This document shows positions 23,701 to 43,365 of a DNA stretch of 64,000 bases, piece after piece. The stretch's first letter is position 1; the number at the start of each line of letters is the position of its first letter. Below the pieces are notes generated by a model. The model worked only from the letters and a program-made list of their open reading frames with translations. It did not search any database and had not been told where the DNA came from. The position numbers were made by a program, and so were the translations under genes. Source of the DNA: Trissonchulus latispiculum (Eukaryota > Nematoda > Enoplea > Enoplida > Ironidae); assembly GCA_030248195.1 (NCBI GenBank), contig JASAND010023997.1, forward strand, positions 20,258 through 84,257, read 5' to 3'.

Positions 23701-23715
23701 GAGTAGTATAGGAGA

Positions 23716-25754
23716 GGACAAATGGGACCTGTTTGGGCTAATTTTGGATTCCATTTATGGACCTCCTGTCAAATTATGACAGTTAGCTGTCAAATGGCTG
23801 TCAAAGATATTAAGCTGTCAAAATTAATGATCTTGAGCTATCAAATTAATGGGTTGGTCCACCATCTGTCTGTGTGGCTAAAATTTTTTCTTACAATCTG
23901 CCTATTAAATTTCTGATACCATCTGTCAGCTACCATCTTTTAATTTCTATATGAATGACTTATGCTTCCAAATAAAATTAATTTCGACTCCTTAATTGCT
24001 TTTGGGTGAATATACGATTCCTCAACTTAATTGCTTTTGGGTAAAGTTTTAATTCCTCAAGTCTAACATGTTTTGGGTAAATGTTCAAAGAATCTAACAA
24101 CATGAAATTGCGTGGGCTAATTCCTCAAAGCTTAACTGCATGAAAGATTAATTACATTTGGGCTAATTTTCAGTTCCTCAAATTTAATTGCAGACAAGAT
24201 TAATTGTTTTTGGGTTGATATAGAATTCCTCAACTTTTGGGTTGAAGTAGGAATCCTCAAAGATTATGTGATTAATTACTTTTGGGCTAATACAGAATTC
24301 CTCAAAACTTAATTGTATGGATGATTAATGACTTTTGGGCAAAGTTCTAATTCCTCAAATAACTTTGGTTGATATGATTAATTACTTTTGGGCTAATATA
24401 GAATTCCTCAAACTTAATATCTTTTGGGTTGATGTAGAATTCCTCAAAGATTATGATTAATTACTTTTGGGCTAATATAGGATTCCTTAAGTCTATGAAC
24501 GACTAACTGTGTGGGCTAATTTCTAATTCCTCACAGTCTATGTTTATCCATGATTAATGACTTATGGGAGAATTTTCGATTCCTCAAGATCATGAAGATT
24601 ATGGGTTGTTACCTCCCAGCTAAAATGGTTAAGTGATTGGGAATACAATTCCTTAAGTTTAGGGCTAACATAGAATTCCTCAAAGCTTATGATTAACGAG
24701 TTTGGGCAAATATTGAATTCCTTCTATGGAGGACTAATATAGGATTCTTCAAACTGAGTTTCTTGAATGATTAATGGGTGTGGGCTAATATAGGATTCCT
24801 CAAAGGTTATGGGAGTGGGCTAATAAATAATTCCTCACATTTTGGGTGAATATATTCCTGGAAGAATAATAGTGTTTTGGAGTGAATAATTCTGCTCATA
24901 AGTAGTAGAATGGAAGCAGTGAAAATGGTTAAATTCTGGAGGTGTGCTAAGTTTCCAGTGGAATAAAACATGACAAACATAAGGTTATCACTATAATTTT
25001 GGTATCATCTTGTAGAGCACGTTTTCAACCACACTGCACGACACTTTCAACCTCATACCACAACTAATTAGTTAGCTATAATAACTTAAAGTTTGTGTAG
25101 GATAGTGAAACTTGTCAAAAATAAGGTGCCAATAATAAAGAAGAATAAATGTAACAAACGACTCCATCCTGTAGAGCAAATTTTCTGCATTGAACTTTGA
25201 AACGATTACCAGTTAGTAATAATTAATTAAAGCTAACAAATTTTAATTAAGAAGACTAACAAAAATGGTGTATAGGAAGACGCACTGTTAAATCTAACAA
25301 CCACATGTGTACAACGCTGGCAATACGTGAAAAATGAATAATTTCAAGAGGAAAGGCAGATGGTAATTATGCATGATTTGAAAATGAAGAAGCAGATGTT
25401 GACTTAAAGAATTCAAAAATATGAGCAGATGTTATGAAGGAATGATCAAAGACACAGTGAGATATATTTGGAAGAAATGTAGAATGATAAGGCGTAGAAC
25501 AAGACTCATGGAGAATATAAATGAGCTATACTATTATTAGTGTTGTGAACGAAATTTTACTTCAAGTATATGATATTTTTGAGTAACTGAAACAACAACC
25601 GAAAACTCACAACACAAATGAGATAACACATTTCAAACATTATTCAACATATTTTATGAAACCTAGCACAAGAATGCAGCAAAATTAATATATAATATAG
25701 TTTATTAGCTTATTTGCTTCATTTATCTCATTTGATTATTCACTGAATTCAACC
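23716..25754. other. Polinton left terminal region with degenerate repeats
   Basis: No protein gene. From about 23960 to 24870 a loose repeat of 35-60 bases recurs about 18 times, built on (t)gggctaat..agaattcctcaaa, often followed by ttaattac. The complement of 38955-38985 at the right end has a related word (aggaatcttcaac), hinting that these are subterminal repeats of the element. The rest (24870-25754) is AT-rich without visible features. Confidence 0.5.
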
Positions 25755-26409
25755 ATGTCAATCTTGGATCTTAGGAATTTGATGATTGCATTTGATGGTA
25801 AGTGAAATATGTAATTAAATTTTTATAATTTCAGGTACTATCTCTTCAAGTATATATTGTCAATTTCCTGATATTAACTATTATGACAATATGTATTTTC
25901 TATCATATATGTTTATTATTCTAGAAACGCCAATTGAGAAAACGATTACGGATAATTTGGTCTTGTTATGCAATGAGATGGAGCCAAATCCAGTTGCCGA
26001 CTACATGGTGGAACACGAGCGCATGACGAAACATTTCCGCGACACAATCAAGGCCGAATCACGATACGAAGGTGCCTTCAGCCTCCTATTAAAGATTAAA
26101 CAACAGCATGACGTTGGACCCCTACTTTACGATTCATTGGTCAAATCCGGACAGTACAATCTGGCGAAGTTGTTTGCGAGTGAACCGGAGGAGCCAGGAG
26201 TTACGTGGAAGATTTTCAGCAAGAGTAAATACATGATTGCTGAATCTAACATCACCTACCCTACCATACCAGCGGCGAAGGAAGATGTAATCACAGTGCT
26301 TGGAACATTACCACCAGACAATCGTTCAATCACCTTTATTGAATGGATTGGAAATTGTATGGTTAAACAGTGGAATGTACCTGAATGTATCGTATCCCCA
26401 CACTATTAA
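25755..26409 (+). CDS. CARD-domain protein, two exons (Polinton cargo)
   Basis: Exon 1 25755-25797 starts at ATG and ends at donor gtaagt in phase 1. Exon 2 25925-26409 follows the acceptor ttattattctag, and the phases match; total about 175 residues. Residues about 15-100 have the six-helix CARD pattern: an amphipathic first helix, PVADYMVEHERMT, KHFRDTIKAE, a helix ending LLLKIKQQH, and LLYDSLVKSGQYNLAKLF, which fits the CARD end '..L..AL..tGQ.hLa.lL'. CARDs make homotypic contacts in apoptosis and innate immune signalling. The last 70 residues are unrecognised. A viral copy could act as a decoy (inference). The intron is unusual for a Polinton gene and suggests host capture. It could instead be a host gene only if the element ended to its right, which the terminus at 23702 argues against. 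Confidence 0.72.
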
Positions 26410-26521
26410 CAATACCGTATCACACTAATCATTATATGCACTGTATGTATTACCTGTTCTACAATAAACGAAATGTTATTGACTAACATTGGACAAATAA
26501 TAGAATAGAATAGAATAGACA

Positions 26522-26890
26522 TTATTCAAGCATCTCAGCTTCCAATTTGTCAAGTTGGTTATAAATGATTTGAATCCGTTGGTGATGTTTCATGATGGAA
26601 CGTAAATCTCTCATCTTATCCCTGACAGCATCAATTTCTGGAACATGAGGTCTTGGTGGTAAACCGCACTCACGTCTGAGAGATTCTTCATCCATATGAC
26701 ATAGTTCATCATAGACCATGCCGGAAACTTGCTCGATAGCGTTACGTGGATGTGGTAGTGGAGCACTTGTCCAGGTCTTACAACCTATCACCATGACTGC
26801 AACCCATCGACCAGTAGTCCATACCTGAACTGGTGGTGGTTGGCGTAGGGTCTTTTGTAGGAATTCGTTTAACTGACTGCGGTTAGACAT
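26522..26890 (-). CDS. Small protein, possible dsRNA-binding-like fold
   Basis: 122 residues on the minus strand; its ATG overlaps the end of the upstream TBP-like gene by 8 bases, so the two form a tight antisense pair. Residues 4-60 can be read as helix (SQLNEFLQKT), strand (PPPVQVW), strand (GRWVAVMVIGCKTWTS) and helix (PRNAIEQVSGMVYDEL), the order of a dsRNA-binding domain. The usual GP.H and KK.A motifs are absent. The C-terminal half (85-122) looks like a coiled coil (MRDLRSIMKHHQRIQIIYNQ). If it binds dsRNA it might counter RNA-based defence, but this is inference. Otherwise unrecognised. Confidence 0.35.
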   Translation of the reverse strand: MSNRSQLNEFLQKTLRQPPPVQVWTTGRWVAVMVIGCKTWTSAPLPHPRNAIEQVSGMVYDELCHMDEESLRRECGLPPRPHVPEIDAVRDKMRDLRSIMKHHQRIQIIYNQLDKLEAEMLE

Positions 26891-27419
26891 GGTAAGATAT
26901 GGATAGGTTAGGGTCAGTCTTCTTATTAACTAGAGTTATCAGCGAGTTTTCAGTAGATTGCAGGTGAAGTGAACATTTAGCGCCAGTAAGAATGACCTTA
27001 CCAGTGTGAAAAATGAGAGCTGTTACTCCATCAATTTTACACGTAAGTCCATTGAAAAGTTCTGGTTCATAGCAAACCTGAAAGTTATTCCTAAGGTGTT
27101 CATATAGTCTGTTCAAATCTATGCACTTGCCAACGCTAAAGGACGAGACAAGATTAACCACTTTACCACCTTGAAGAATTCCAACTCCAAGACTATTGGC
27201 TAGTTGAATTGTACATTGATTGGCCCTTTCGACAGATCTGCATCCAAGACAAACAAAACTACCACTCCGGAATAGTTGAAATGTTGCCTCTTCAAGCTTC
27301 AAACTACCACCAATAAATCCCTTGTACAGCTTAATGTGAGGAATGTCTGATAATCTAAGTTGTTTATCAAAACGCCCATTAAGAACAACGTTGACAATCA
27401 TAACGCATATTCTTCGCAA
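26883..27419 (-). CDS. TATA-binding protein (TBP) homologue encoded by the Polinton
   Basis: 178 residues, the size of the TBP saddle core. Two direct repeats are visible: residues 8-79 and 87-165. Repeat 2 has YEPELFNGL and ALIFHTGKVILTGAK, close to the canonical TBP text; repeat 1 is more diverged (FQLFRSGSFVCLGCRS). The four phenylalanines that kink TATA DNA align at F35, F50, F122 and F137. TBP nucleates transcription initiation on TATA promoters in the nucleus. A viral TBP could redirect the host machinery to viral promoters (inference). There is no N-terminal extension, and helix regions are strongly diverged, so it is not a recent host TBP copy. It lies antisense to the capsid genes, just upstream of the dsRBD-like gene. 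Confidence 0.85.
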   Translation of the reverse strand: MRRICVMIVNVVLNGRFDKQLRLSDIPHIKLYKGFIGGSLKLEEATFQLFRSGSFVCLGCRSVERANQCTIQLANSLGVGILQGGKVVNLVSSFSVGKCIDLNRLYEHLRNNFQVCYEPELFNGLTCKIDGVTALIFHTGKVILTGAKCSLHLQSTENSLITLVNKKTDPNLSISYHV

Positions 27420-27461
27420 TCAGCAACATATTTCTACTTATTTACTGCTTATTTACTCTCC

Positions 27462-27767
27462 ATGAAGGGTTTATGGAATACTAGAATCTCCCCACACGTC
27501 TACATAAAACATGGGAATAGGGCTGATACGAGAACAGCATCAAAATTCTATGGTAATAAGAAGCACATAGAAGGATTGTTATCTCGTATAGTTCAAGACC
27601 CTGACTATGGATACTGGATCAAATTCCCAAGACGAGCAATCCTGTTTAAAAGATTCGAAGCAGCAATTGGTCAAAAAAGCTCCCTGTATAACCGCATGCC
27701 TTCTCATAAAATTTTTATTGTCTATGACTGTATTAGCGATTTTATCGTCACGGCATACCCAGTGTAA
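27462..27767 (+). CDS. Unrecognised small basic protein
   Basis: About 101 residues from the ATG at 27462. The frame extends upstream to 27360, but that part overlaps the divergent TBP-like start, so the later ATG is preferred. Basic N-terminal half (NKKHIEGLLSRIV, then YGYWIKFPRR); C-terminal strands KIFIVYDCISDFIVTAYPV end abruptly. The last strand resembles the terminal strand of small RNase-type domains, but no catalytic set can be assigned. Overlaps the next plus-strand gene by 44 bases in another frame if that starts at 27724. Function unknown. Confidence 0.45.
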   Translation: MKGLWNTRISPHVYIKHGNRADTRTASKFYGNKKHIEGLLSRIVQDPDYGYWIKFPRRAILFKRFEAAIGQKSSLYNRMPSHKIFIVYDCISDFIVTAYPV

Positions 27768-28053
27768 TCTCCCTCCTCAGTTCAACCTGACAACTGACAC
27801 TGCAATCTTCATCCATAATGGTTGGAATGAATACTCACTGACCGCTGACAAGTTCCGTGAAGTCAAGATATTCATCTATCACTGCCTGAATTTTGAATGT
27901 CCAACATATACCGAGGGAACGAAACCATGTCCCTATATTGCTACCCTTGAGGAAACCACCCTATGCCTAGATCATAATAAACGTGTCCTTAATGGATATA
28001 TTGGTACAGTCAGTCTAACAGCTGATCAAATTTATGACCTCTACAGTCATTAA
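27724..28053 (+). CDS. Small putative secreted or membrane-anchored protein
   Basis: Open from 27607. I favour the ATG at 27724, which gives 109 residues starting MTVLAILSSRHTQC, a short signal-like hydrophobic stretch. From the upstream ATG, residues 28-46 (ITACLLIKFLLSMTVLAIL) would form a membrane segment instead. Mature part has four to five cysteines (HCLNFECPTY, KPCPYIA, TTLCLDH) and NLTTD-type glycosylation potential. No family recognised. Another small secreted protein of similar style follows at 34999. Confidence 0.5.
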   Translation: MTVLAILSSRHTQCNLPPQFNLTTDTAIFIHNGWNEYSLTADKFREVKIFIYHCLNFECPTYTEGTKPCPYIATLEETTLCLDHNKRVLNGYIGTVSLTADQIYDLYSH

Positions 28054-28127
28054 GTAGGGGACTGAATCCATCTAATTCTCATCTTAACCCTTCTTCTCAA
28101 CTTCTCTCTTGTATAAGGCTGTACAAG

Positions 28128-28334
28128 ATGTATAAGGCTCTCCAGTCACTGATCCGTCTAAGCCGCTATCACAAGCGTAAATGCAGAAGATACCCGAAAC
28201 AGAAGATCATCATTTCTATTCCTGGTATCGGATGGAGGAGAATTCTGTATGTGGATATGATGCAGCTAATCCAAGAAGAACCTGTTGAAATTGTGGAAGA
28301 ATTGATCCTTGATGAAGAGATGGACGTCAAATAG
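28128..28334 (+). CDS. Small basic-then-acidic protein, unrecognised
   Basis: 68 residues: a very basic first half (RYHKRKCRRYPKQKIII) followed by IPGIGWRRILYVDMM and an acidic tail (EEPVEIVEELILDEEMDVK). The charge split and the position between other Polinton genes make it plausible as a real gene, but no homology can be claimed. TATA-like gtataagg lies about 18 bases before the ATG. Confidence 0.4.
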   Translation: MYKALQSLIRLSRYHKRKCRRYPKQKIIISIPGIGWRRILYVDMMQLIQEEPVEIVEELILDEEMDVK

Positions 28335-28436
28335 AAGATGTTGACATATGAGAAAAACATGAAGAAACAATGACATTATGACATATTGATGACAATTGTT
28401 GTTGTGTATTGGTGTATTAATTGTGACTAGTAAACT

Positions 28437-28450
28437 CATATAAACAGACT
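28437..28450 (+). promoter_or_regulatory. TATA-like promoter motif before the ATPase gene
   Basis: catataaacagact, 37 bases before the ATPase ATG at 28474. Nearly the same word is found before 34999, and relatives occur before 33159 and 29579. Confidence 0.45.
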
Positions 28451-28473
28451 TTGTGTGTACAAGTAGGTTAATA

Positions 28474-29118
28474 ATGGAAAGAGTAAAGACACCTAAATTT
28501 CAACATCCGTTCACATGTATTGTGGCGGCACCAACAAAGGCAGGAAAGACAACATTTGTGTCAAGACTAGTACAACATGCAGATGAAATGATCTCTGTAC
28601 CTCCTGAAAAGATAATTTGGTGTTATACTGAGTGGCAAGAAGCATATGACAACCTTCCACAGGTAGAATTTGTGAAGGGATTGCCTGACCTGGAAATGTT
28701 AAAGACCCCCGATGCAAAACTGGTAGTCCTTGATGATCTAATGAGTGAAATTAAGCAGCAACCTAATTTAGTTCAGCTATTTACTCGTGGATGTCATCAT
28801 TGGTCCTGTAGTGTAGTTAACATTACTCAAGACATCTTTTACGATAGACAGAGAACTAACAGGATAAACAGTCAGTATATTGTCCTGATGAAAAACCCTG
28901 CAGATAAGCTAACACCAATGAACCTTGCAAGACAAATGTATCCTGGTAGAGTGAAGGGTTTTATGGAAGCCTTTGAGCATGCAACTAGTCGACCTCACGG
29001 ATACCTACTAATAGACTTAGACCAGAACACACCAGAAAAACTCCGTCTACGAGGTCACATATTTCCCGATGATCCTTACTCAGATGTATATTCCATAAAA
29101 ACTGACGCAACGAATTAA
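28474..29118 (+). CDS. Packaging ATPase (A32/FtsK-HerA type)
   Basis: 214 residues from ATG 28474, preferred over the upstream in-frame ATG at 28453 because homologues begin close to the P-loop and the TATA-like word lies between. Walker A APTKAGKTT at residues 19-27 and Walker B KLVVLDDLM at 82-90 with adjacent Asp residues; the later NITQDIFYDRQRTNRINSQY is the conserved segment after Walker B in Polinton and NCLDV ATPases. It powers genome packaging into the capsid. Short for the family, as is normal in Polintons. No frame damage. Confidence 0.88.
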   Translation: MERVKTPKFQHPFTCIVAAPTKAGKTTFVSRLVQHADEMISVPPEKIIWCYTEWQEAYDNLPQVEFVKGLPDLEMLKTPDAKLVVLDDLMSEIKQQPNLVQLFTRGCHHWSCSVVNITQDIFYDRQRTNRINSQYIVLMKNPADKLTPMNLARQMYPGRVKGFMEAFEHATSRPHGYLLIDLDQNTPEKLRLRGHIFPDDPYSDVYSIKTDATN

Positions 29119-29127
29119 TAATTAGTC

Positions 29128-29459
29128 ATGGATCGTTTTGAAAGAAACATTGATACTCTACGGCTCCTGTGTCACTGCAAAAGACGCAAACAAAGAGATG
29201 CAATTATTCTGCATGGAAGTCCTGATCTCATAAAAGCCATTTGCGATTGTGCAGAAAATGTCTTATCTGGAAATGTGAAAATATCAAAGAAGGATAAGGA
29301 TAGACTAGCCAGATATAAGCACGCTCTAAGGACACTACGCAAGAAAAGAGTAAGTCTCAAGAAGAAGAAGAAGGTCATAGTCCAACACGGAGGATTCTTA
29401 CCAGCATTACTTGGTCCAATTGTTGGTATTGTCAGTGGACTACTCGGAAATCTCATACG

Positions 29460-29463
<4 letters not shown>
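29128..29463 (+). CDS. Conserved Polinton basic protein with hydrophobic tail
   Basis: 111 residues: a basic region (LRTLRKKRVSLKKKKKVIVQ) followed by GGFLPALLGPIVGIVSGLLG, a hydrophobic, possibly membrane-active segment. This combination recurs next to ATPase and integrase genes in animal Polintons. The basic part suggests nucleic-acid condensation inside the virion and the tail a membrane-disruption or core role (inference). It starts 9 bases after the ATPase stop. The frame closes in a TAA microsatellite (29461-29503). Confidence 0.7.

Positions 29464-29503
<40 letters not shown>
29461..29503 (+). repeat. (TAA)n microsatellite
   Basis: About 14 TAA units directly after the basic-protein gene, whose stop is the first unit. 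A related AAT tract lies within the integrase gene at about 30816-30885. Confidence 0.95.
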
Positions 29504-29505
<2 letters not shown>

Positions 29506-29527
29506 ATATGTGATAAAGAAAATCATA

Positions 29528-29542
29528 GATAATAAAAACTGG
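29528..29542 (+). promoter_or_regulatory. TATA-like motif before the 29579 gene
   Basis: gataataaaaactgg, 51 bases before the ATG at 29579, resembles cataaaaacctgt before the capsid gene at the same distance. Confidence 0.35.
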
Positions 29543-29578
29543 TACTGAGAAAATTGATTAATAAATGATCGAGTAACA

Positions 29579-30106
29579 ATGGAATATTCAATCCTAGTCA
29601 AACCAGACTACTTTGATGAACATAGTAGGGCACTAGAGAAGGAGGCCAGTAATGTTCTCAAGTCAAAACTACCAGCAGATATCAAGAGTAAGCTGTTTAA
29701 ACAGGCAGACTACCGACGAAGAATACTACGGGACAAACCAACAGAGATGACCCTAAAGACTCCTGCACACCCGGACATAGTGTCTACTCTACCTCCAACA
29801 CTACAACAGAAGGGAAGGCATCTGATTGAACATATCATGAGCATACCAAGTCTCAAGGTTAATGGTCGAGGTGAAATAGAGTATCAAGGTCAACCAGTAC
29901 CTGGGTCCAGAATATATGATCTGATTCACGACTTTATTCGCAATAGACCCAGTCAACCACCTGCAACAGGCTGGCAAACACTGGCAAAGGCATTAAGGGA
30001 CAGTAATGTACCACGTGAACTTATCGGAAATCCACGGTACATAAGTACACAGACTGGACAAGGACTTAGATCAGCACTTAGAAAACTGAGATGGAAACGT
30101 CACTAG
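29579..30106 (+). CDS. Conserved Polinton protein of unknown function
   Basis: 175 residues. A middle segment with GEIEYQGQPVPGSRIYDLIH, then ATGWQTLAKALRDSNVPREL and IGN matches a recurrent Polinton protein typically found just before the integrase; I know no function for it. It ends in a basic tail (SALRKLRWKRH) and overlaps the integrase start by 16 bases, implying coupled expression. N-terminal third is charged and probably helical. Confidence 0.65.
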   Translation: MEYSILVKPDYFDEHSRALEKEASNVLKSKLPADIKSKLFKQADYRRRILRDKPTEMTLKTPAHPDIVSTLPPTLQQKGRHLIEHIMSIPSLKVNGRGEIEYQGQPVPGSRIYDLIHDFIRNRPSQPPATGWQTLAKALRDSNVPRELIGNPRYISTQTGQGLRSALRKLRWKRH

Positions 30107-31242
30107 AGAAACGTTTGGAAAATATTTACTACGACCCTAAAAGTCCTGCAGCATTTGGTGGTATTAATCGTGTGTACCAGGAAGCGAAAAGACATGGAAT
30201 TTCAAAGTCAAAGGTACGTCAGTGGTTGGAAAAGCAATATACTTACAGCATCCATAAACCTGTAAGGCACAAATTCCCCACGAGGAGATATGTTGTATCA
30301 GCAATTGACGACCTATGGCAAATAGACTTGGCAGATATGGTATCGATTTCAGAGAAAAATGATGGTTATAAGTATCTATTCACTTGTATTGATGCCTTCT
30401 CTAAGTACGCATGGGTAATACCCGTTAAGAGCAAAGGTGGTGTAGAGATGACAAGAGCGTTCCAGGAAATATTAGCAGACGATCGATCACCCCTTAACCT
30501 TCAGTCTGATAGAGGCAAAGAATTTCTCAATAAGGATTTCCAGAAGCTGCTAAACACCCACCATATCAACTTTTACACGTGTAATAATCCTGTGATTAAG
30601 TGTAGTCTAGTAGAACGTTTCAACCGAACAATCAAGACAAAGATATGGAAATACTTTACCAAGGCAAGATCTTACAGGTACATTGACGCACTACCCGAAC
30701 TCGTCAGTGGCTACAATAATGCACGTCACAGGAGTATTCGTATGTCACCTGTTGAGGCATCTAAACCAGAAAATATGGAAGCTGTTAGAAAAGCTTTATA
30801 CGGGAAGACAAGAAGTAATAATAATAATCATAATAACAATAATAATAATAATAGCAATAAGAATAACAACACTAATAATAATATTAGGCCACCTAAGTTG
30901 AAGGTTGGAGAAATGGTTCGAATAAGTAAAGCAAAAGGACTGTTCGATAAAGGTTATTTACCTAACTGGTCAGAAGAACTGTTCCGAATACGAAAGGTCA
31001 GTACCAATAATCCACCAATGTACCACCTAGAAGATTACGGAGGTGAAGAGATTGAGGGTGGATTCTATGAGCCTGAAGTACAACGGGTTGATGAACCAGA
31101 CACATATTGGGTAGAAAAGGTAATAAAAACAAGAAGGCGTAAGGGTCGTAAAGAGTATTTTGTCAAGTGGCTTGGATACCCTGACAAATTTAACAGTTGG
31201 ATTACAGAAGATAATGGATTTTTACCTGTACCTGCCCAGTAA
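30091..31242 (+). CDS. Retrovirus-like integrase with C-terminal chromodomain
   Basis: 383 residues. The N-terminal 60 residues resemble the helical pre-core region of Polinton integrases. The rve core has catalytic D79 (LWQIDLADM), D140 (LQSDRGKEF) and E175 (VERFNRT), giving D,D-35-E spacing. Residues about 243-264 are an Asn-rich linker encoded by an AAT microsatellite. A small beta-barrel-like segment (KVGEMVRISK) and a chromodomain at about 339-375 (TYWVEKVIKTRRRKGRKEYF, VKWLGYPDKFNSW) follow. It inserts the linear element into host DNA; the chromodomain probably guides it to methylated histones (established for other chromodomain integrases). Overlaps the next gene by 26 bases. Confidence 0.93.
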   Translation: METSLEKRLENIYYDPKSPAAFGGINRVYQEAKRHGISKSKVRQWLEKQYTYSIHKPVRHKFPTRRYVVSAIDDLWQIDLADMVSISEKNDGYKYLFTCIDAFSKYAWVIPVKSKGGVEMTRAFQEILADDRSPLNLQSDRGKEFLNKDFQKLLNTHHINFYTCNNPVIKCSLVERFNRTIKTKIWKYFTKARSYRYIDALPELVSGYNNARHRSIRMSPVEASKPENMEAVRKALYGKTRSNNNNHNNNNNNNSNKNNNTNNNIRPPKLKVGEMVRISKAKGLFDKGYLPNWSEELFRIRKVSTNNPPMYHLEDYGGEEIEGGFYEPEVQRVDEPDTYWVEKVIKTRRRKGRKEYFVKWLGYPDKFNSWITEDNGFLPVPAQ

Positions 31243-31978
31243 TACCGGAGACTACTCCACCAACAAACTAAACAACTACCGAGTCAAACTTCCTCACAGA
31301 GTAGACCTTGAAGGCGAATGGGAAGTGGCATTAGTAGAGCTCGGATATCCTGTCACCTGGTTTAATGTTGGTAATAAGGCTGATGCGAAGCTTGGAGTGA
31401 CTGTTGGCAAAAAGAAGTTCAATGGTCACATACCCCTAAATAACTATGAGTCTATACATCAGCTATGTGATGCCATCAACTATACACTTGAATTGACTAA
31501 GAAAATTAATTGTGAACTAGCCTACGATGAACTTCATAGACGAGTTGGACTGAAACCTACTACCCTAGACGAAGAACCAGACTTTAAGTCGTTGCACTTC
31601 AGTAAGCAGCTAAAGTATATGCTAGGATACTCTGACACAAAGGTTGTACCAAAGGAAAAGACAGACTCACCACCTAGATACGCAGTCGCCAATAGTGCAC
31701 CAGACCTGAGAGGCGGACTATATTCCCTGTTCATCTATTGTGACGTGGTAGCACCGCAAATGATAGGAAACACCATCTCACCCATCATTCGTGTTGTTAG
31801 TATAGAAGGAAGGCATAATGATACTATTGATCGAATATACAACAATCCACACTATATACCATTGTTAAGGAAAGAGTTTGATAGTATTGAAATACATATA
31901 AAGGATGATCACGGTAACGCGGTAAACTTTAAGTACGGAAAGGTATTTGCAAAGTTACACTTCCGAAAGCGAAGATGA
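31217..31978 (+). CDS. Penton/minor-capsid-like protein, paralogue 1
   Basis: 253 residues from Met at 31217, giving MDFYLYLPSNTGDY; the frame opens at 31160 inside the integrase gene, but family members begin at FYLYLPSN. Contains LEGEWEVALVELGYPVTW near the N terminus and IYCDVVAPQMIG followed by a C-terminal strand pair. This is the widespread Polinton protein thought to be the penton/minor capsid (single jelly roll). The downstream gene is a full-length paralogue; the stop and the next ATG overlap as ATGA. Confidence 0.75.
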   Translation, partial: DFYLYLPSNTGDYSTNKLNNYRVKLPHRVDLEGEWEVALVELGYPVTWFNVGNKADAKLGVTVGKKKFNGHIPLNNYESIHQLCDAINYTLELTKKINCELAYDELHRRVGLKPTTLDEEPDFKSLHFSKQLKYMLGYSDTKVVPKEKTDSPPRYAVANSAPDLRGGLYSLFIYCDVVAPQMIGNTISPIIRVVSIEGRHNDTIDRIYNNPHYIPLLRKEFDSIEIHIKDDHGNAVNFKYGKVFAKLHFRKRR

Positions 31979-32736
31979 GTTTCTACCTGTATCTAACTGG
32001 AAGTGACGGTACCTTCGAGAATCAATTGGCTCATCCACTACATCTCCATGGTAGGTGGTCGGTTGCAATGGTAGACTTCATTTATCCTCATACATGGAAA
32101 GCCCTTGATTCTGATACATTCATTATAGTCCTATTTGAGGCAAACGAGAGAGCAGTTGGCAATATACCCAGACGGAGGTACTATAACCTTCATGACCTGA
32201 TAAACACCATCAACCTTACCATTCAGTCAATTCTTAATGAACGTCAGGAATCACCTCCTATACGTTTCGTCTATGATCAGGAAATGGATCGGGTTTACCT
32301 GGACTTATACGAGAACCAAGAACACCTTGAAAGACCCAACTTTGGTTTTGTTCAATTTGCACCTACAATTGCACGCATACTTGGCTTTGACTCTCAGAAA
32401 TTTACCGTAGAGGATGGTACGGATGCCCTAAGGACTAAGAAGTTCTACGCACAACGTCCACCTGACCTCAACTATCATTACCTTCAAGTTCATTGTGACA
32501 TTGTGAAAGAACAGTTAATGGGCACAACTACCGGGAATCTACTGGGAATTGTAAAGGCTGGTAATGAGTATGGAGATATCATCCAACATTCTTTTCAACC
32601 CCACTACGTCCCTGTGAATAAACACGTGATTAGCACCATTAAAGTCCATATAAACAACCACATTGGAAGGACTGTACATTTTGAGTATGGTAATATAGTC
32701 ATTAAACTACACTTCAAGAAAAATCATGAGGACTAG
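31975..32736 (+). CDS. Penton/minor-capsid-like protein, paralogue 2
   Basis: 253 residues, exactly as long as paralogue 1. Aligned landmarks are SFYLYLTGSDGTFENQL with HGRWSVAMVDFIYPHTW, VHCDIVKEQLMG (compare IYCDVVAPQMIG) and a matching end, HPHYVP-like then IKVHINNHIGRTVHFEYGN. The two copies are strongly diverged, so the duplication is old. Either two different vertex proteins or a heteromeric penton is possible. Overlaps the next gene by 11 bases. Confidence 0.73.
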   Translation: MSFYLYLTGSDGTFENQLAHPLHLHGRWSVAMVDFIYPHTWKALDSDTFIIVLFEANERAVGNIPRRRYYNLHDLINTINLTIQSILNERQESPPIRFVYDQEMDRVYLDLYENQEHLERPNFGFVQFAPTIARILGFDSQKFTVEDGTDALRTKKFYAQRPPDLNYHYLQVHCDIVKEQLMGTTTGNLLGIVKAGNEYGDIIQHSFQPHYVPVNKHVISTIKVHINNHIGRTVHFEYGNIVIKLHFKKNHED

Positions 32737-33112
32737 ATATCATCCCGAAACCGTTGAGGACTGGCACCTCCACCTGGTTCAGAGGGGTTCTGGATTCTAC
32801 GCCGGTCAAAGGTATCAGCGTGGCGACGGGTTAGGAAGTCTACTGCGAGGTATTGGTCGGTTCATTTGGCCTGTTGTACGTCGTGTGGGACTAGAGGCAG
32901 GTAGACAAGCCTTTCAGACAGCAGGAGAAGTGGCTCGAGATTACCTGAACAGAGGTGAAGATCCGAGAGAATCGTTGAAGCGAAGAGGTAAGGAAGCCAT
33001 TGGACGAATGCTTGAGAACAGTGGTAAGGCAATTCAACACGGTCAAGGTATTGGATCCAGACCGTATAGACGACGAGTTAAGAGATTGAAGCGTGACATA
33101 TACAGCCCATAA
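32726..33112 (+). CDS. Small basic virion-type protein (pVI-like analogue candidate)
   Basis: 128 residues. FYAGQRYQRGDGLGSLLRGI followed by GRFIWPVVRRVG is the recurring 'QRG.GLG..' segment of Polinton proteins encoded just before the major capsid gene. An amphipathic helix follows, and the C-terminal end RPYRRRVKRLKRD is nuclear-localisation-like. By position and composition it may play the part of adenovirus protein VI (membrane lysis, capsid cement) and be cut by the viral protease; that is inference. Overlaps penton paralogue 2 by 11 bases. Confidence 0.6.
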   Translation: MRTRYHPETVEDWHLHLVQRGSGFYAGQRYQRGDGLGSLLRGIGRFIWPVVRRVGLEAGRQAFQTAGEVARDYLNRGEDPRESLKRRGKEAIGRMLENSGKAIQHGQGIGSRPYRRRVKRLKRDIYSP

Positions 33113-33120
33113 AAACCTGT
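33108..33120 (+). promoter_or_regulatory. TATA-like motif before the major capsid gene
   Basis: cataaaaacctgt, overlapping the stop codon of the preceding gene and 51 bases before the capsid ATG; close relative of catataaacctgac at 34957. Confidence 0.45.
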
Positions 33121-33158
33121 AATAATACTGATAATTATATGACTAACACAGTATTAAT

Positions 33159-34478
33159 ATGGCTAAGCAAGTAGATGAAAAGTCAATGCCGGGCTTTAAG
33201 TCCGAGATGGATCTCTTCTCACTACCTCCAACCCAGGTTAGTGTAGAGAGTGGATACATGGCAGAAATTTACCCCCTAAATCCTGTTACAAGTTCAGGTC
33301 CATACCTATTCCAAGTACCTAAGGATTCCTACATGCTTGACCTGAATAGAAATTATCTATACCTGAAGCTACGAATAACAGATAGTGATGGAAAGGCTGT
33401 GGTAAAGGCGGCGGATGGTAGTATCTCAGTAGCACCCATCAATATGCTAGCAAAAACATTCATCAGACGATTGGTAGTCAAACTGTCAGATAAGGAAATT
33501 TACAACAGTGGAGACCTGTATCACTACGGAGCCTACCTAGAGACAATAGCCAACTTTGGGAAGGAAGCCAAGACCACACATCTACAGAGTAACCTATTTG
33601 CGAAGGACAGTGACTTTAACGACATTACATCTACAGCAGCTAAACACAGGGGTATACCCTTCACTGATGATCGATATGTAGTCGTAGCAGGACCCCTTCA
33701 CTGCGATCTATTCAAACAAGACAGATACCTGCTAAGTGAGTGCCAGTTGAGTCTGGAAATACATCGAAATACTGATGATGTACTGTTACAGTCAGCAACC
33801 AGTGGATACAAGCTCATTGTGGACGACATTAGGTGGTGTGTATGGAAGGTCAAACCTCAGGATTCCCTGACCATGGCAATTGAGGGTGTTCTGAGAGATC
33901 ATGAAACTGCCAAATATCCCATTAGAAGAACCAAGCTAGTAACCAGACATATCGCACCCGGAGTACAGACAATAGTTGAAAACTCCATATTCACAGGTCA
34001 ACTTCCACGCAGGGTCTTAGTGGCAATGGTAAAGTCAGAAGCATTCAATGGAAGTCAGAAACATAACCCCCTCGAGTTCCAACACTGTAACGTCAGCGAG
34101 ATTGCACTCAAGTACGGAGATGAGTTTGTACCCAAACAACCTATGAGGATGGCATGGGATAAGTTCCAGTACACAATGCCGTTCATATACCTGTATGAGG
34201 GTAACGACATGGCAGGGTCAACTAAAGGTGCAGATATTTCCTACGAAGATTTTGGTAAGGGATACACGATATTTGCGTTTGATCTAACTCCCGATAACGT
34301 GGATACAGGAGCTATGCAATTGATCAGGGAAGGTGACGTATCACTGAGAATGCAACTAGAGAAAGCCCTACCTACTGCCACTTACCCTCAAGGAGTTGAA
34401 ATCATTATATATGGCGAATTTGATAATCTCATATCAATAGATTATAATCGAACACCATTCTTTGACTACGCACTATGA
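33159..34478 (+). CDS. Major capsid protein (double jelly roll)
   Basis: 439 residues, intact. N-terminal DLFSLPPTQVSVESGYMAEI and the core NYLYLKLRITDSDG are typical of Polinton/adintovirus hexon-type capsid proteins, as are NSGDLYHYGAYLETIANFG and the late ISIDYNRTPFFDYAL end. Two jelly-roll domains are expected over residues about 20-230 and 240-435. Trimers form the capsid facets. The stop codon overlaps the protease ATG (atga). Identification is from motif style and gene order; structure cannot be checked here. Confidence 0.85.
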   Translation: MAKQVDEKSMPGFKSEMDLFSLPPTQVSVESGYMAEIYPLNPVTSSGPYLFQVPKDSYMLDLNRNYLYLKLRITDSDGKAVVKAADGSISVAPINMLAKTFIRRLVVKLSDKEIYNSGDLYHYGAYLETIANFGKEAKTTHLQSNLFAKDSDFNDITSTAAKHRGIPFTDDRYVVVAGPLHCDLFKQDRYLLSECQLSLEIHRNTDDVLLQSATSGYKLIVDDIRWCVWKVKPQDSLTMAIEGVLRDHETAKYPIRRTKLVTRHIAPGVQTIVENSIFTGQLPRRVLVAMVKSEAFNGSQKHNPLEFQHCNVSEIALKYGDEFVPKQPMRMAWDKFQYTMPFIYLYEGNDMAGSTKGADISYEDFGKGYTIFAFDLTPDNVDTGAMQLIREGDVSLRMQLEKALPTATYPQGVEIIIYGEFDNLISIDYNRTPFFDYAL

Positions 34479-34963
34479 ATACCAGAGAAATTCATCTAAC
34501 TCTAAGCAAAGACCGTAGAATTCCCTTCCTGGGAGTATTTGCAAGTGATCAATTACCTGATAGGATACCAAATCAATGTTGTTGTCTTGTTGCAAACACT
34601 GAACGGGCTAATGAACCTGGAGAACACTGGGTTGCAATGTGGTTGGAGGAGGATAGGGTAGAATATTTTGATAGCTATGGATTACCACCTCTACTATTCA
34701 CATCTTTCATTGGAAATAAGATACTAGAATACAATCCTATCCAGCTACAAGATTTTACCACTGATGTTTGTGGAGAATACTGTATCTACTTCCTTCACCA
34801 CCGAGCTAGAGGAAGATCAATGGACTCCATTATCAGATATCTCAGGAAGCGGAGTGATACCAATGATAGTATTGTCAAGACATTTGTTGATTCCCTGAGA
34901 ATTAGAACACCACCTACACCTAATTGCCAGATATGCCATAAAAAGTATCACAATATCATATAA
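34475..34963 (+). CDS. Adenain-like cysteine protease
   Basis: 162 residues. Catalytic set visible: His51 in GEHWVAMW, Asp66 in EYFDSYG, the oxyanion Gln92 in QLQDF and Cys99 in DVCGEYC, the order of C5/Ulp1-type proteases. It matures capsid proteins during assembly. Starts on the capsid gene's stop by a 4-base overlap, so the two are probably co-expressed. C-terminal NCQICHKKYH could bind metal. Intact. Confidence 0.9.
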   Translation: MNTREIHLTLSKDRRIPFLGVFASDQLPDRIPNQCCCLVANTERANEPGEHWVAMWLEEDRVEYFDSYGLPPLLFTSFIGNKILEYNPIQLQDFTTDVCGEYCIYFLHHRARGRSMDSIIRYLRKRSDTNDSIVKTFVDSLRIRTPPTPNCQICHKKYHNII

Positions 34964-34970
34964 ACCTGAC
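34957..34970 (+). promoter_or_regulatory. TATA-like motif before the 34999 gene
   Basis: catataaacctgac, overlapping the protease stop and 42 bases before the ATG at 34999. Matches catataaacagact before the ATPase gene at 11 of 14 positions. Confidence 0.45.
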
Positions 34971-34998
34971 TTATCACTTAACCTAACCATACCTTACC

Positions 34999-35343
34999 AT
35001 GCATCTGCTAATACTTTTAGCACTTACAACCCTAGCACACTCTGTTATCGTCACAGAAACAGATGAGGGTATAAGGCTATCTCAGAACAATGTTACCACA
35101 ACACTAGACACTGACCATCTATACCATAGATTGACTGATTGTAGCTTACATCTATGTCGAGAGAATGAACTCAGTCATAGAACCAATTCCTGTCACTATG
35201 TTGAATGGGAACACTGTTGGGAATACTGCTACGATAATACTAGAAGTCTACAGTCAATTCATGATAAAATGACTGGATTTAAGATAGATAATGCCACAGA
35301 ACTTGAATATTTACGTTCAGCACTAAGAGAATATTACCACTAA
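34999..35343 (+). CDS. Small secreted Cys-rich protein
   Basis: 114 residues with a clear signal peptide (MHLLILLALTTLAHS) and six further Cys in DCSLHLCRENE, NSCHY, HCWEYCYDN, enough for three disulphides. One N-glycosylation site near NNVTTT. No known domain. Lies between protease and polymerase with its own TATA-like word, so it is probably transcribed separately. A secreted viral effector or receptor decoy is possible but unproven. Confidence 0.6.
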   Translation: MHLLILLALTTLAHSVIVTETDEGIRLSQNNVTTTLDTDHLYHRLTDCSLHLCRENELSHRTNSCHYVEWEHCWEYCYDNTRSLQSIHDKMTGFKIDNATELEYLRSALREYYH

Positions 35344-35586
35344 TAATGTGCTAATGTTGTACTAATGTTATACTTGCAGTTAATGTACATACATTTCGTG
35401 TTGGTAACTTTATGTAAATCTAGAGTTATTCAAAGCAGCCTTTTGTAATATCTCTGTTTTCTTATATCAGCTTTTTTTGTATTGCCATGGTAAATGTAAA
35501 CTTATGTGTTTGTTGTTTGTTGCTTCATGTAATGACATTTTGAATTCGGGGGTATTAAGAAGGGTAATTAGTTTTGAGAGTTAGTA
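35344..35586. other. Gap before the polymerase gene
   Basis: AT-rich, non-coding; presumably holds the polymerase promoter, but I see no TATA-like word of the type found before other genes. Confidence 0.4.
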
Positions 35587-38500
35587 TTGAAAATGAGTTT
35601 GCAACGTCAAGCGGTTTCTTTAAGAGGTTATTATCGGTGGTACCGGATAACCCCAGATGAAGCTACTAATGATCCGAAACAATTCCTACTGGAATCAACC
35701 GAGACTGTTCAGAATCTCATCAGTGATCAAGCCATGAAGATGCAGCTAAGACTACATATTCTATTCATCAATGAGATCACCAATGAAACAATGAGCAGCT
35801 ATTTTGCCAGCAAACAGACCATCATCATGCCTGGAGAAGATGTACCCATGAATTCAATGATTAACCACATTCTATCCAATGTCGAAGAGTTTCAGCGTAA
35901 TGGATCTGGCTGGATAATTGATCATGTACGATACCTGGACATTCACCTTGCCAAATACCGACCATTATTTGGATCAACCTACATACCATTGCCTAAGAAG
36001 CTTCAAAGCAAGAAGGCAATCATCAATCCGAAGAATAGTGACAATAAATGCTTCATGTGGAGTATTTTGGCAGGACTACATCCAGTGAAGACTAATGCGA
36101 ATAGAGTTTTCAAATATCAACAATTTGTGGATAATCTGAACTTTGAAGGTCTGGAGTTCCCAGTTAAACTAACCGATATACCCAAATTTGAACGACAGAA
36201 CGATATATCCATCAATGTCTATGGTTACGACAAATCAGTTCATATCCTATACCTATCGAAGACCAGACGTGAGAAACATATCCACCTATTGCTCCTGAAT
36301 AACCAACATTACTGCCTTATCAAGGACCTTGGAAGATTTCTTCATGATCAGCGGAAAGAAAAAGGAAGAAAGTGGTTTTGCAATCATTGTCTATTTCCAT
36401 TTGGCACAGAAGAACGACGTAATGAACATCAGAACCTTTGTAGTACTGATAATGTACAGATTACAGTAATGCCATCATTGACAAAGCTTAAATTTCAGAA
36501 TGATCATAGGCGTTTAATGCGACCTTACGTGATTTATGCAGATTTTGAGTGTTTATTAGAGAAGGTAGACACATGCCAGCCTAACCCAATGTCCTCTTTC
36601 ACAAACAGTTACGAGCGACATAAACCATGCGCATACGGGCTAGTAGATGTTCTCCAATGTTGTGAGGGAAAGCCAGTGGTTAGGGGAGATCCGATAATTT
36701 ATCGAGGGGAAGACGCAGTGCAGCAATTCCTTAGGACCGTCATACAGAAGGGTCAACAGTACCAGGAAGTTCTGAATAAGTATCCGAGGTTACCCAAGCG
36801 ACTTCTTCAACATGGTACAGAATGTCATCTATGTCATGGCACGATTGCGGAGGGTGAGTCTACAAGGGATCATTGTCATATTTGCGGCACAATCAGAGGT
36901 TATGCACACAGGCGGTGTAATCTCAAGTATAAGCTTGGACGAACGGTGACTGTAATGTTCCACAACCTAAGGCGGTACGATGGGCACCTAATAATGCAGG
37001 AAGTTGGGAAGATCAGTAAGGAGTTTAAGCTTGACATCACGTGCGTACCGAAGGGATTAGAAGATTACCTATGTTTTGAGTTGAATGTCGAACAGGAATG
37101 GCGTATCAGGTTCATTGACAGCTATCAATTCCTGAACAGGTCACTGGATACATTAGCAGGTGGATTGGCTGACGAGGACTTTCAATTCACATCCAGTATC
37201 TACGGTGACAAGCTAGCACTGATGAGAAGGAAGGGCGTATATCCGTATGAATACATGGATTCATGGGCAAGATTCGAGGAGCAGCAGTTACCACCCATTG
37301 AAGCCTTCCACAGTACATTGACAGACAGTGACATCAGTAGCAGCGACTACGAACATGCAGTCAATGTATGGCAGAGTCTAGGAATTCAGAATATGGGACA
37401 GTATCACGATGAATACCTGAGAACAGATGTCCTATTGCTTGCAGATGTGGTAGAGAATTTTCGCAGAACCAGTCTGAAAACATATGGTTTAGATCCATGT
37501 CATTATTGTACTCTACCTTCATTTGCATGGGACGCCTGTCTCAAGTACACAGGACAAGAGCTAGATCTATTGACTGACCCAGATATGTACAAGTTTTTTG
37601 AAGATGGGATTAGGGGTGGAGTGGCTATGGTTGCTCAACGGTACGCTAAGGCTAATAATCCCCTGTTGGATGACTATAATCCCAATCTTCCAACATCCTA
37701 TATAACCTACGTAGACATGAATAATTTATACGGATGGTCAATGGTCCAGAAGTTACCCGTACGCAATTTTAGGTGGATGACAGACTTAGATCAGTGGAGA
37801 GACGTTCCATGTATCCTTGAAGTTGACCTTGACTATCCACACAATCTACATCATGCACACAATGACTATCCACTTGCACCAGAGCGAATTACCATCAGCG
37901 AGGGTATGATATCACCATACAGTAAGCAACAGGGAGGATATATGAGGTGTGAGAAGTTAGTACCGAATTTACAGAATAAGACTCGTTACATCGTACACAA
38001 GCATACCCTAGAACAGTATTTAGATCAGGGTTTAGTGCTAAGGAAGATACATAGGGGAGTAACATTTGAGGAAGAAGCATGGATGAAACCCTACATTGAG
38101 TTGAATATGGTGAAGAGGGCAGCCGCTAAGAGTAGGTTCGAGGAAGATTTATACAAGCTCATGAATAATGCGGTATTTGGGAAGACAATGGAGAATGTAC
38201 GCAATCATGTAGACGTAAGGCTAGTTACCAGTCCAGAGAAGTTTGAGAAGTTAGTTGCAAACCCTAGGTATAAGGCATGTGAAGCCTTTTCAGGGGATTT
38301 GGTAGCAGTTCAGATGCAGAAACGTACAGTAAAGCTATGCAAGCCAGTATATGTAGGATTTACCGTACTGGAATTATCGAAGTATCTCATGTATAATTTT
38401 CACTACAATTACATGAGACAGAAGTACGGTGATAGAGCAAGCCTACTGTATACTGACACTGATAGCTTCTGTTACCACGTGACAACACCTGACATTTACC

Positions 38501-38916
38501 AAGACATGGCACAGAACATTGACTTATTTGACACCAGCAATTACCCTAAGGAACATCCACTGTACAGCACAGCCAACAAGAAGGTAATTGGTAAGATGAA
38601 GGATGAAGTTAAGGGGAAGCCTATAAGTGAATTTGTTGGACTGAGAGCGAAGATGTACAGTATCCGGTGTGAAGGAGATGATAAGTCAGCAGCTAAGGGA
38701 CTAAGTAGGTCGGTGAGATTGAGTCATGAAGATTATAAGCGAATTCTATTTGAAGGAGGTCAGACTAGACATATTATGAGTAGCATTGACAGGAAGGGAC
38801 ATCAGTTGACTACAGTACAGAGGTGTAAGGTAGGATTAAGCGCCTATGACGACAAACGTTATATACTTGATGATGGCATTCATTCACTTGCTTATGGTCA
38901 TGTATTGATTGATTGA
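35587..38916 (+). CDS. Protein-primed family B DNA polymerase
   Basis: 1109 residues, intact. The N-terminal part has the NSDNKCFMWSILAGLHP segment and a Cys/His finger (CNHCLF..EHQNLC) usual in Polinton polymerases; residues about 413-449 form an endonuclease VII-like CxxC...DHCHICGTIRGYAHRRCN motif. Exonuclease motifs: D319/E321 (YADFE), N460/D465 (HNLRRYDGH), Y610/D614 (YLRTD). Polymerase motifs: A at D710 (DMNNLYGWS), B at 860-866 (NNAVFGK) and C at 957-960 (YTDTDS). It replicates the linear element with a protein primer. Intact motifs suggest recent activity. Confidence 0.95.
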   Translation: MKMSLQRQAVSLRGYYRWYRITPDEATNDPKQFLLESTETVQNLISDQAMKMQLRLHILFINEITNETMSSYFASKQTIIMPGEDVPMNSMINHILSNVEEFQRNGSGWIIDHVRYLDIHLAKYRPLFGSTYIPLPKKLQSKKAIINPKNSDNKCFMWSILAGLHPVKTNANRVFKYQQFVDNLNFEGLEFPVKLTDIPKFERQNDISINVYGYDKSVHILYLSKTRREKHIHLLLLNNQHYCLIKDLGRFLHDQRKEKGRKWFCNHCLFPFGTEERRNEHQNLCSTDNVQITVMPSLTKLKFQNDHRRLMRPYVIYADFECLLEKVDTCQPNPMSSFTNSYERHKPCAYGLVDVLQCCEGKPVVRGDPIIYRGEDAVQQFLRTVIQKGQQYQEVLNKYPRLPKRLLQHGTECHLCHGTIAEGESTRDHCHICGTIRGYAHRRCNLKYKLGRTVTVMFHNLRRYDGHLIMQEVGKISKEFKLDITCVPKGLEDYLCFELNVEQEWRIRFIDSYQFLNRSLDTLAGGLADEDFQFTSSIYGDKLALMRRKGVYPYEYMDSWARFEEQQLPPIEAFHSTLTDSDISSSDYEHAVNVWQSLGIQNMGQYHDEYLRTDVLLLADVVENFRRTSLKTYGLDPCHYCTLPSFAWDACLKYTGQELDLLTDPDMYKFFEDGIRGGVAMVAQRYAKANNPLLDDYNPNLPTSYITYVDMNNLYGWSMVQKLPVRNFRWMTDLDQWRDVPCILEVDLDYPHNLHHAHNDYPLAPERITISEGMISPYSKQQGGYMRCEKLVPNLQNKTRYIVHKHTLEQYLDQGLVLRKIHRGVTFEEEAWMKPYIELNMVKRAAAKSRFEEDLYKLMNNAVFGKTMENVRNHVDVRLVTSPEKFEKLVANPRYKACEAFSGDLVAVQMQKRTVKLCKPVYVGFTVLELSKYLMYNFHYNYMRQKYGDRASLLYTDTDSFCYHVTTPDIYQDMAQNIDLFDTSNYPKEHPLYSTANKKVIGKMKDEVKGKPISEFVGLRAKMYSIRCEGDDKSAAKGLSRSVRLSHEDYKRILFEGGQTRHIMSSIDRKGHQLTTVQRCKVGLSAYDDKRYILDDGIHSLAYGHVLID

Positions 38917-38998
38917 TTGTATGTATTAAATTACGTATAGAATAAATAATGGTGTTGAAGATTCCTAAGGTTTAGGGTTTGATGTCTCCTATACTACT

Positions 38999-40793: not shown

Positions 40794-41280
40794 CCTAAAA
40801 GAAATCTTAAACTGTAGTTTAATACTATCACCACTTGACTGCTTATACTAATCCACTTGAGGCTCAATAAACATATTAATATCAATGGTTTACAGTTCAG
40901 ATTGATTTAAACTGAAGATCAAGTTAAAATTAGACTTTCCAAACTTCATCAGTCAGGCTTTTCCTTTTCTAATTCGAAGTTACTGTTAAAATTTCATGAG
41001 TCAAAATTTCGAAACGTTGCTTCTGTGACAGAATTCAGTTCAACCACTGGATACTGCACCACGTTTCGACTGTGCAACTTTTAATTATTCCAAAAATTCA
41101 GGTAAAACTGTAACTTTTGCAAAATAGGATCAATAAATGGACTAAAACGTAATTCCAAATTGAACCTACAGGCCTTAGGAAACGCCCTAGCTAAACCAAC
41201 TGCGTCTAGTCCCTTTATATATCGAATCGAAACACCATTCGTTTATTAAAGAACATTCTAGCTATCCTACACAGTATATA
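40794..41280. other. 3' UTR and downstream of the ABCA gene
   Basis: An aataaa is at 40865-40870 (gctcaataaacat), a plausible polyadenylation signal 72 bases after the stop. The rest is AT-rich with nothing recognised. Confidence 0.55.
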
Positions 41281-43172: not shown

Positions 43173-43365
43173 TATACACCACCACTGTTTAAAATAAATA
43201 ACATAGTTGAAACAGACAACAATAAGAAAAGTCCAAAGTTAACACAACAGCAAGAAAGGCGGGGAAAAGGCATAAAAACAAACGGAATGCCAAAAAATCA
43301 GTAATAAATATTTTAACACAACAATACAGATTTGGCCCAGCAAAGTATAGTTCACTTTCATTCAA

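Follow-up and report, generated by a model that had tools for sequence, protein, structure and literature searches.

A Polinton that encodes its own TATA-binding protein, with a TATA-like promoter word and a candidate virus-controlled transcription switch

Many eukaryotic DNA viruses are widely considered to have Polintons (Mavericks) near their root. Common to Polintons, adintoviruses and the element described here are a family B DNA polymerase (PolB), an rve integrase, a double-jelly-roll major capsid protein (MCP), homologues of a packaging ATPase and a protease, and a length of about 15 kb (with tentative ends in the present case); to this set the element adds a TATA-binding protein (TBP) gene together with a TATA-like promoter word. 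Archaeal viruses use a small viral TBP together with the host polymerase. In giant viruses (Nucleocytoviricota), virus-encoded two-lobe TBPs with the conserved phenylalanines are known, for example from PMC4602308, PMC12085832 and PMC11464507, and a survey (PMC11410667) counts seven families of large dsDNA viruses with a TBP. CpV-BQ1, a user of the host polymerase, encodes a TBP and two TFIIB proteins according to PMC12085832. As described in PMC7221094, viral TBPs keep their DNA contacts, vary at two TFIIB-contact glutamates (approximately 40% conservation at C.L3.2), almost always occur together with a TFIIB of viral origin, and have lost the N-lobe patch that is bound by TFIIA, TAF1, Brf1 and Mot1. 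A TBP is also recurrent in mirusviruses, with 59% of genomes reported in PMC10132985, but these viruses are far larger (up to approximately 430 kb, PMC10132985) and have an HK97-fold capsid (PMC10675990), whereas the present element is small and of the double-jelly-roll type.

The literature searched, mostly outside subscription journals and without the principal paper on adintoviruses, gave no report of a TBP in a Polinton. Searches for these terms within PMC11071296, PMC11071308, PMC10120064, PMC12220804, PMC10132985, PMC11464507, PMC10675990, PMC7786948, PMC4722103, PMC4602308 and PMC12085832 either gave no mention of TATA or TBP, or gave mentions that referred to other viruses or to a name, primer or reference; PMC10675990 places TBPs among elements linked to mirusviruses and not among its Polinton-like viruses. 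What appears to be new here is a TBP in a Polinton, one that retains and lacks contact surfaces in a combination of its own; the TBP family and the class of element are both known.

The TBP gene is located on the minus strand at 26883..27401 of the window (the whole 64-kb stretch of DNA that was analysed). The original prediction had described a 178-residue minus-strand TBP at this place, containing all four DNA-intercalating Phe; the open reading frame 26883-27419 is present as claimed, with TTG as its first codon, and the first in-frame ATG at 27401 yields a protein of 172 aa with two TBP lobes. The protein matches Pfam PF00352 over two stretches with 88.2 bits, far above the cut-off of 22.9 (E=3.2e-25), and the alignment retains the four Phe as well as both minor-groove Asn. 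The NCBIfam TBP models also match, at scores below their cut-offs. A sequence search of the PDB at E<=10 matched 35 distinct sequences: 34 carry the names TBP, TFIID or TBP fusion, and the remaining one, ECU04_1440, is presumably a microsporidian TBP. An AlphaFold model based on 32 sequences (mean pLDDT 92.7, pTM 0.82) predicts the two-lobe saddle, and all 44 PDB chains recovered with this model at E<=0.001 in a structure search are TBP or TBP-containing chains or fusions. The predicted saddle was compared with human TBP on DNA (1cdw), giving a TM of up to 0.86 and an rmsd of 1.6 A. The Pfam match and the confident model rule out a chance open reading frame. At the level of sequence and modelled fold, the product is confirmed as a true two-lobe TBP, for which binding and bending of DNA are predicted.

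Used alone as a query, the protein gave nothing at E<=1e-3 among 62 candidate proteins, and no family was found for it in PHROGs. Fold matches in BFVD include Heterosigma akashiwo virus, Terrestrivirus, Ectocarpus virus and an asfa-like B263R homologue. The phage collection, when searched for TBP, gave two haloarchaeal viruses (three records) and one weak Escherichia phage match (E=0.5); the archaeal virus TBPs of HJTV-2, a member of the Caudoviricetes, and HRTV-9 are 26-27% identical to the window TBP. Scanning the viral_contigs collection with a TBP profile gave one archaeal-virus-like contig, L003, which is probably an archaeal virus and whose TBP is 28% identical to that of the second Polinton discussed below. 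Single-protein and profile scans of viral_contigs with TBP, MCP, PolB, ATPase and the 128-aa gene detected no Polinton relatives, and the plasmid collection, searched with MCP, gave nothing.

A second TBP-bearing Polinton, L001, was found with a capsid-protein profile on contig JAJRVU010000309.1. This contig is filed in a Planctomycetota MAG; because it carries Polinton genes, it has most likely been mis-binned and comes from a eukaryote or a virus. The L001 TBP (Pfam E=1.9e-45) is encoded on the reverse strand, directly adjoining the forward ATPase gene, and the window TBP is likewise a reverse-strand gene before a forward block, with approximately 1 kb and small ORFs separating it from the ATPase. 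By BLASTP, nine genes of the two elements are paired with order and strand equal: TBP, ATPase, a 111/112-aa protein, a 175/267-aa protein, integrase, penton-like protein, a 128/148-aa protein, MCP and protease, with unmatched ORFs interspersed in both (e.g., the second penton-like gene of the window). Identities of the pairs range from 32 to 51%; the TBP, at 37% over 123 aa, is close to the MCP at 33%, suggesting that the TBP and capsid genes diverged in step. On the L001 contig, PolB was not seen. The other Polinton locus that was fetched, L002, ends short of the TBP region and is therefore neutral on the TBP, so that the lineage claim rests on two elements and the tree. The original prediction had proposed a search for the gene beside Polinton polymerases in other genomes; in L001, a Polinton that is very diverged from that of the window, a TBP was located at the matching position. 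As L001 has its TBP ahead of eight homologous genes on the same strands and in the same order, the TBP is, judged from gene order, a long-carried gene of a Polinton lineage and did not stray there from the host. Its retention at one position in such distant relatives makes it look as if it belonged to the machinery by which the element controls itself.

The element carrying the window TBP is an intact Polinton, and its host genome is apparently animal. The placement of the TBP in a Polinton, as originally claimed, stands: PolB, the rve integrase and the double-jelly-roll MCP occur in the same element and the TBP is flanked by viral genes. Just downstream of the TBP gene, a 122-aa ORF of no known family (26522..26890, minus) has its ATG overlapping the TBP stop by 8 nt. 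The forward block contains the A32-like packaging ATPase (28474..29118; 214 aa), which is 46% and 51% identical to the two overlapping ORFs that make up the L001 ATPase, each compared separately, and matches Pfam Pox_A32 weakly (E=0.1). It is followed by a 111-aa protein (29128..29463; 47% identical in L001) with a presumed virion-like role, a 175-aa protein (29579..30106; 32% identical) and an rve-family integrase with a C-terminal chromodomain (30091..31242; Pfam rve 5e-14, Chromo 7e-10; 36% identical). The product of 31214..31978, homologous to L001 6197-7201, is taken by us to be a minor capsid, penton-like protein (a candidate label), and a tandem paralogue at 31975..32736 is 29% identical to it (E=4e-34). 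Further along the plus strand are a basic 128-aa protein with the motif QRGxGLG (32726..33112; 41% identical to L001), the MCP (33159..34478; 439 aa), an adenain-like cysteine protease (34475..34963; 32% identical to its L001 counterpart), a 114-aa ORF following the protease (34999..35343, with a TATA-like site ahead) and an intact PolB of 1107 aa (35593..38916; Pfam DNA_pol_B_2 5e-16) that has no internal stop. Indeed, none of the 16 listed genes of the window has one. Peptidase_C5 matches the L001 protease just below the cut-off (E=7e-4) and the window protease alone at E=0.1; for both the ATPase and the protease, homology between window and L001 is clear, yet the Pfam matches are below cut-off in both elements.

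Several differences and possible cargo genes were noted along the two elements. The penton-like genes form a tandem pair in the window (31214-32736, plus) as opposed to one gene at the corresponding place in L001, and in the L001 integrase (4974-5930, plus), unlike in that of the window, Pfam detects no chromodomain at E<=1. Within PolB, a sub-threshold Endonuclease VII-like stretch occurs at 36808-36942, plus (residues 408-452 of the ORF counted from 35587; E=4e-4, 20.6 bits, cut-off 23.6). To the left of the 122-aa ORF, a 172-aa ORF at 25891-26409 (plus) has a sub-threshold match to CARD, a death-fold domain (E=0.0029, 18 bits, cut-off 23.9), and is possibly apoptosis-related cargo. Next to the TBP gene of L001, 2272-2520 (plus) encodes a ubiquitin-like DWNN domain (29.1 bits, cut-off 26, E=1.2e-6), presumably of the RBBP6 type, and a 145-aa ORF at L001 11000-11437 (minus) matches CAAP1, a caspase-activity and apoptosis inhibitor, weakly and below cut-off (E=0.011).

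A profile of the window and L001 TBPs detected 31 proteins among 628 candidates, including, as P0123, the L001 TBP. In the full tree of 34 rows the broad grouping is weak (45/93), and the window TBP, which is long-branched, still pairs with P0140 (80/79). After nine fast or far rows (P0141, P0146-P0153) were dropped, the reduced tree of 25 rows split 15 Polinton-type rows from the other 10 with support of 97/98. The 15 comprise the window, L001 and 13 others, with genomic context known for two and the rest typed by the tree; the 10 comprise four TBP-like host-type rows, three TRF2-type rows, the archaeal-type L003, and two further rows, P0135 and P0144, with P0134, P0136 and P0137 being typed as host from sequence alone. 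AU tests on the reduced tree, for groups named after the first (34-row) tree had been seen, gave p=0.014 against the window with host TBP, p=0.010 against the window with TRF2 and p=0.041 against the window with both. The phylogeny with host TBP and TRF that the original prediction had pointed to thus disfavours either as sister in the reduced tree, more weakly so in the full tree, and the window TBP appears to group with the L001-type lineage. A separate set of very diverged TBPs (P0149, P0150, P0152 and P0153), on contigs of up to 14.7 kb, was grouped with 100/98 in the full tree; these proteins are without the first N-lobe Phe and keep YEPELFPAL.

Contact surfaces were counted over the 15 Polinton-type rows and compared with six host-type rows, the latter being left out of the 15-row counts together with eleven far or archaeal-type proteins of the 31 matches (P0135, P0141, P0144, P0146-P0153). 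On the DNA side, the intercalating Phe 197, 214, 288 and 305 are kept in 13, 15, 14 and 15 of the 15 rows, respectively, and the minor-groove Asn167 and Asn257 in 14 (one gap) and 15. The three TRF2-type rows have three of the four Phe changed, whereas the window TBP keeps all four. Among the TFIIB contacts, E284 is found in 14 rows, E286 in 15 and L287 in 12 (M or I in the other three), a conservation that was partly favoured by a search requiring shared 5-residue words such as YEPEL; the window TBP has E, E and L at these C-lobe positions (284/286/287).

The N-lobe displays a different pattern. At positions 184, 189, 191 and 205, which we take to be the TFIIA-contact residues of TBP, E191 is kept in none of the 15 Polinton-type rows (Lys or Arg in 11) vs. 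six of six host-type rows, R205 in none vs. five of six, and A184 and N189 in three each (four gaps) vs. six of six; in the window TBP, E191 and R205 are not kept and positions 184 and 189 fall in a gap. The basic patch of the N-lobe helix, five positions by our own mapping, has zero to two basic residues in the Polinton-type rows and none in the window, compared with five of five in five of the six host-type rows and two in the sixth. The TFIIA residues and, for the most part, the basic patch are features of host-type rows that the window TBP does not share. Ten of the eleven left-out far or archaeal-type rows (P0146 was unaligned) have E284, E286 and L287 in 10/10 each, E191 in 0/10 and F197 in 6/10. 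Combined, the alignments suggest that Polinton-type TBPs have kept the TFIIB contacts and lost the N-lobe patch for TFIIA, Mot1 and TAF1. Loss of this patch is common to Polinton-type and other viral TBPs; the difference is the kept TFIIB contact without a viral TFIIB, as nearly all giant-virus TBPs come with a TFIIB of the virus and the contact is conserved in approximately 40%, whereas it is kept in 14 of 15 Polinton-type rows, and neither TFIIB nor RNA polymerase was found by Pfam (E<=1) in the 19 ORFs scanned in or beside the element.

Recurrent TATA-like words before virion genes were part of the original prediction, and such a word was recovered. When all 8-mers containing no more than one W were enumerated, ATAWAAAC came first, occurring 20-100 nt from the start codon (-100 to -20) of 7 of the 14 forward genes, including those for the ATPase, penton-like protein 1 and MCP; where two ORFs overlap at 27.4-28.0 kb, the count includes the ORF at 27462 and leaves out that at 27607. 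The sites, all on the plus strand, are CATATAAAC before the ATPase (28437..28445), the 128-aa gene (32647..32655; word 78 nt from the ATG) and the 114-aa ORF (34957..34965), CATAAAAAC before the 111-aa gene (29094..29102) and the MCP gene (33108..33116), and AATAAAAAC before the 175-aa gene (29531..29539) and penton-like 1 (31122..31130; word 91 nt from the ATG). The words are located 33-91 nt before the start codons of the seven genes, and no other copy exists on either strand of 25800-38998, giving 7 forward and 0 reverse in the element. In random placements, 0 of 1000 reached 7 (the largest was 5), a permutation that is not fully blind because the upstream window and the idea of a word were set after a first look at the spacers. 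ATAWAAAC is absent upstream of PolB, the integrase, the protease, penton-like 2, three small or left-hand ORFs, and both reverse genes (the TBP and the 122-aa ORF). Over the whole 64 kb, the longer MATAWAAAC is not unusual, with nine copies on both strands (shuffles: mean 6.05, 13/100 reach 9); seven of the nine fall on the element's forward strand.

The same procedure applied to L001 gave TATAAAWA as the top word, upstream of 4 of 10 genes and accounting for all four copies, a count that by itself is not significant (P=0.119). For two of the nine gene pairs, the shorter ATAWAAA occurs at matching distances in window and L001 (-36/-35 for the ATPase and -33/-33 for the 111/112-aa gene); this was reached in 0 of 20000 random placements, but with P=0.055 when real genes were re-paired, suggesting that what the two genomes share is mainly a general placement near -35 and less a match of individual genes. 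Forward and reverse copies of ATAWAAA number 9:2 in the window and 8:0 in L001. With a TATA matrix, the summed score exceeded that of random positions (window 0/5000, L001 P=0.007) and gave P=0.050 (window) and 0.072 (L001) against shuffled upstream bases; the preset score of 8 was reached by none of 16 window genes and by 3 of 11 L001 genes (P=0.002). The upstream region of the window TBP itself has a weak TATA-like TAAATAAG at -54 with a score of 5.6, close to that of some virion genes, and an early/late split is therefore not clean. Additionally, host TBP could serve the same TATA-like words.

We somewhat favour an explanation in which late promoters are served by the viral TBP, which brings in host TFIIB and RNA polymerase II and bypasses the regulators of host TBP. 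The TBP would be made early, from a divergent promoter without ATAWAAAC, and would then bind the TATA-like boxes of the virion genes, where the conserved acidic C-lobe stirrup (YEPELF) would recruit host TFIIB, which in turn would bring in RNA polymerase II of the host. With an N-lobe predicted to be without the residues bound by TFIIA, TAF1, Brf1 and Mot1, the protein would act outside TFIID and escape removal by Mot1. The net effect would be a minimal late transcription switch dependent on the host polymerase, and the virus-controlled switch of the original prediction is in this form supported, by inference, from the promoter word and the kept and lost contact surfaces. That the whole Polinton lineage runs its late genes with a private TBP, using host TFIIB and RNA polymerase II while evading TFIID, TFIIA and Mot1 control, is a tentative extension for which the balance tilts slightly the other way. 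If it holds, one 172-aa protein would suffice for a rewired pre-initiation complex, and the element would be, to our knowledge, the smallest eukaryotic viral genome with its own general transcription factor.

A protein that keeps its TFIIB contacts and loses its regulator contacts would equally suit a competitor that soaks up host TFIIB or blocks TATA boxes and thereby lowers host transcription, with the late genes served by host TBP, which could read the window words ATATAAAC/ATAAAAAC. Such a decoy is unlikely, given that the six checked DNA-contact residues are kept in the window TBP and that TATA-like words are placed before the element's own genes in both genomes, which a mere decoy would not need. 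Another reading retains the TBP but takes the words as ordinary AT-rich spacer, with host genes being the TBP targets; the spacers are indeed AT-rich, and both the matrix test against shuffled upstream bases (P=0.050, 0.072) and the L001 word count (P=0.119) are in keeping with it. The one-sided distribution of ATAWAAAC in the element (7 forward vs. 0 reverse) and the matching distance of ATAWAAA for two genes across two genomes make this reading improbable.

TBP bends DNA, and the left end of the element is AT-rich and repeat-laden, as would suit a protein whose main task, instead of transcription, is to bend AT-rich ends so that the viral DNA can be replicated, packaged or organised as chromatin. 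Such a role would not require the TFIIB contacts to be kept, and the words sit before genes rather than at the ends; it is judged slightly more improbable still. According to a further reading, the element at hand alone captured a TBP or a related factor from its host recently, or a host gene happens to lie next to it. TBP is a host gene in all eukaryotes, and the long branch of the window TBP and the weak full tree fit this reading. It is nevertheless very improbable in view of the position of the TBP between viral genes, the same strand and order with eight following homologous genes in L001, and the AU results in the reduced tree against host TBP (p=0.014), TRF2 (p=0.010) and both (p=0.041).

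The wider interest is that expression of Polintons in animal cells is little known, and a conserved TBP with a TATA-like word offers a concrete and testable answer. A natural TBP in which TFIIB recruitment is seemingly uncoupled from N-lobe regulators would help to separate those functions. Small double-jelly-roll elements also join the viruses known to carry a TBP, which bears on the origin of other viral TBPs.

The ends of the element are tentative. A candidate left terminal inverted repeat, AGTAGTATAGGAG (23702..23714, plus), is matched exactly by a candidate right repeat (38986..38998, minus) that ends 82 bp past the PolB stop. This 13-bp exact inverted pair (23702/38998) is not above chance by itself, and its flanks agree at 4 of 6 bases with a one-base shift; given these ends, the element is approximately 15 kb. 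A BLAST search for terminal repeats gave nothing convincing, and a 31-nt pair at 25094/41243 was dropped as element ends because a host ABCA exon would be enclosed. Near the supposed left end, 23992-24806 (plus) contains eleven diverged copies of a 37-nt unit with TTTTGGG...ATTCCTCAA (family D1). Adjoining the Polinton, 41274-43179 comprises a 184-nt inverted repeat (91% complementary) around 1.5 kb, which is probably another DNA transposon.
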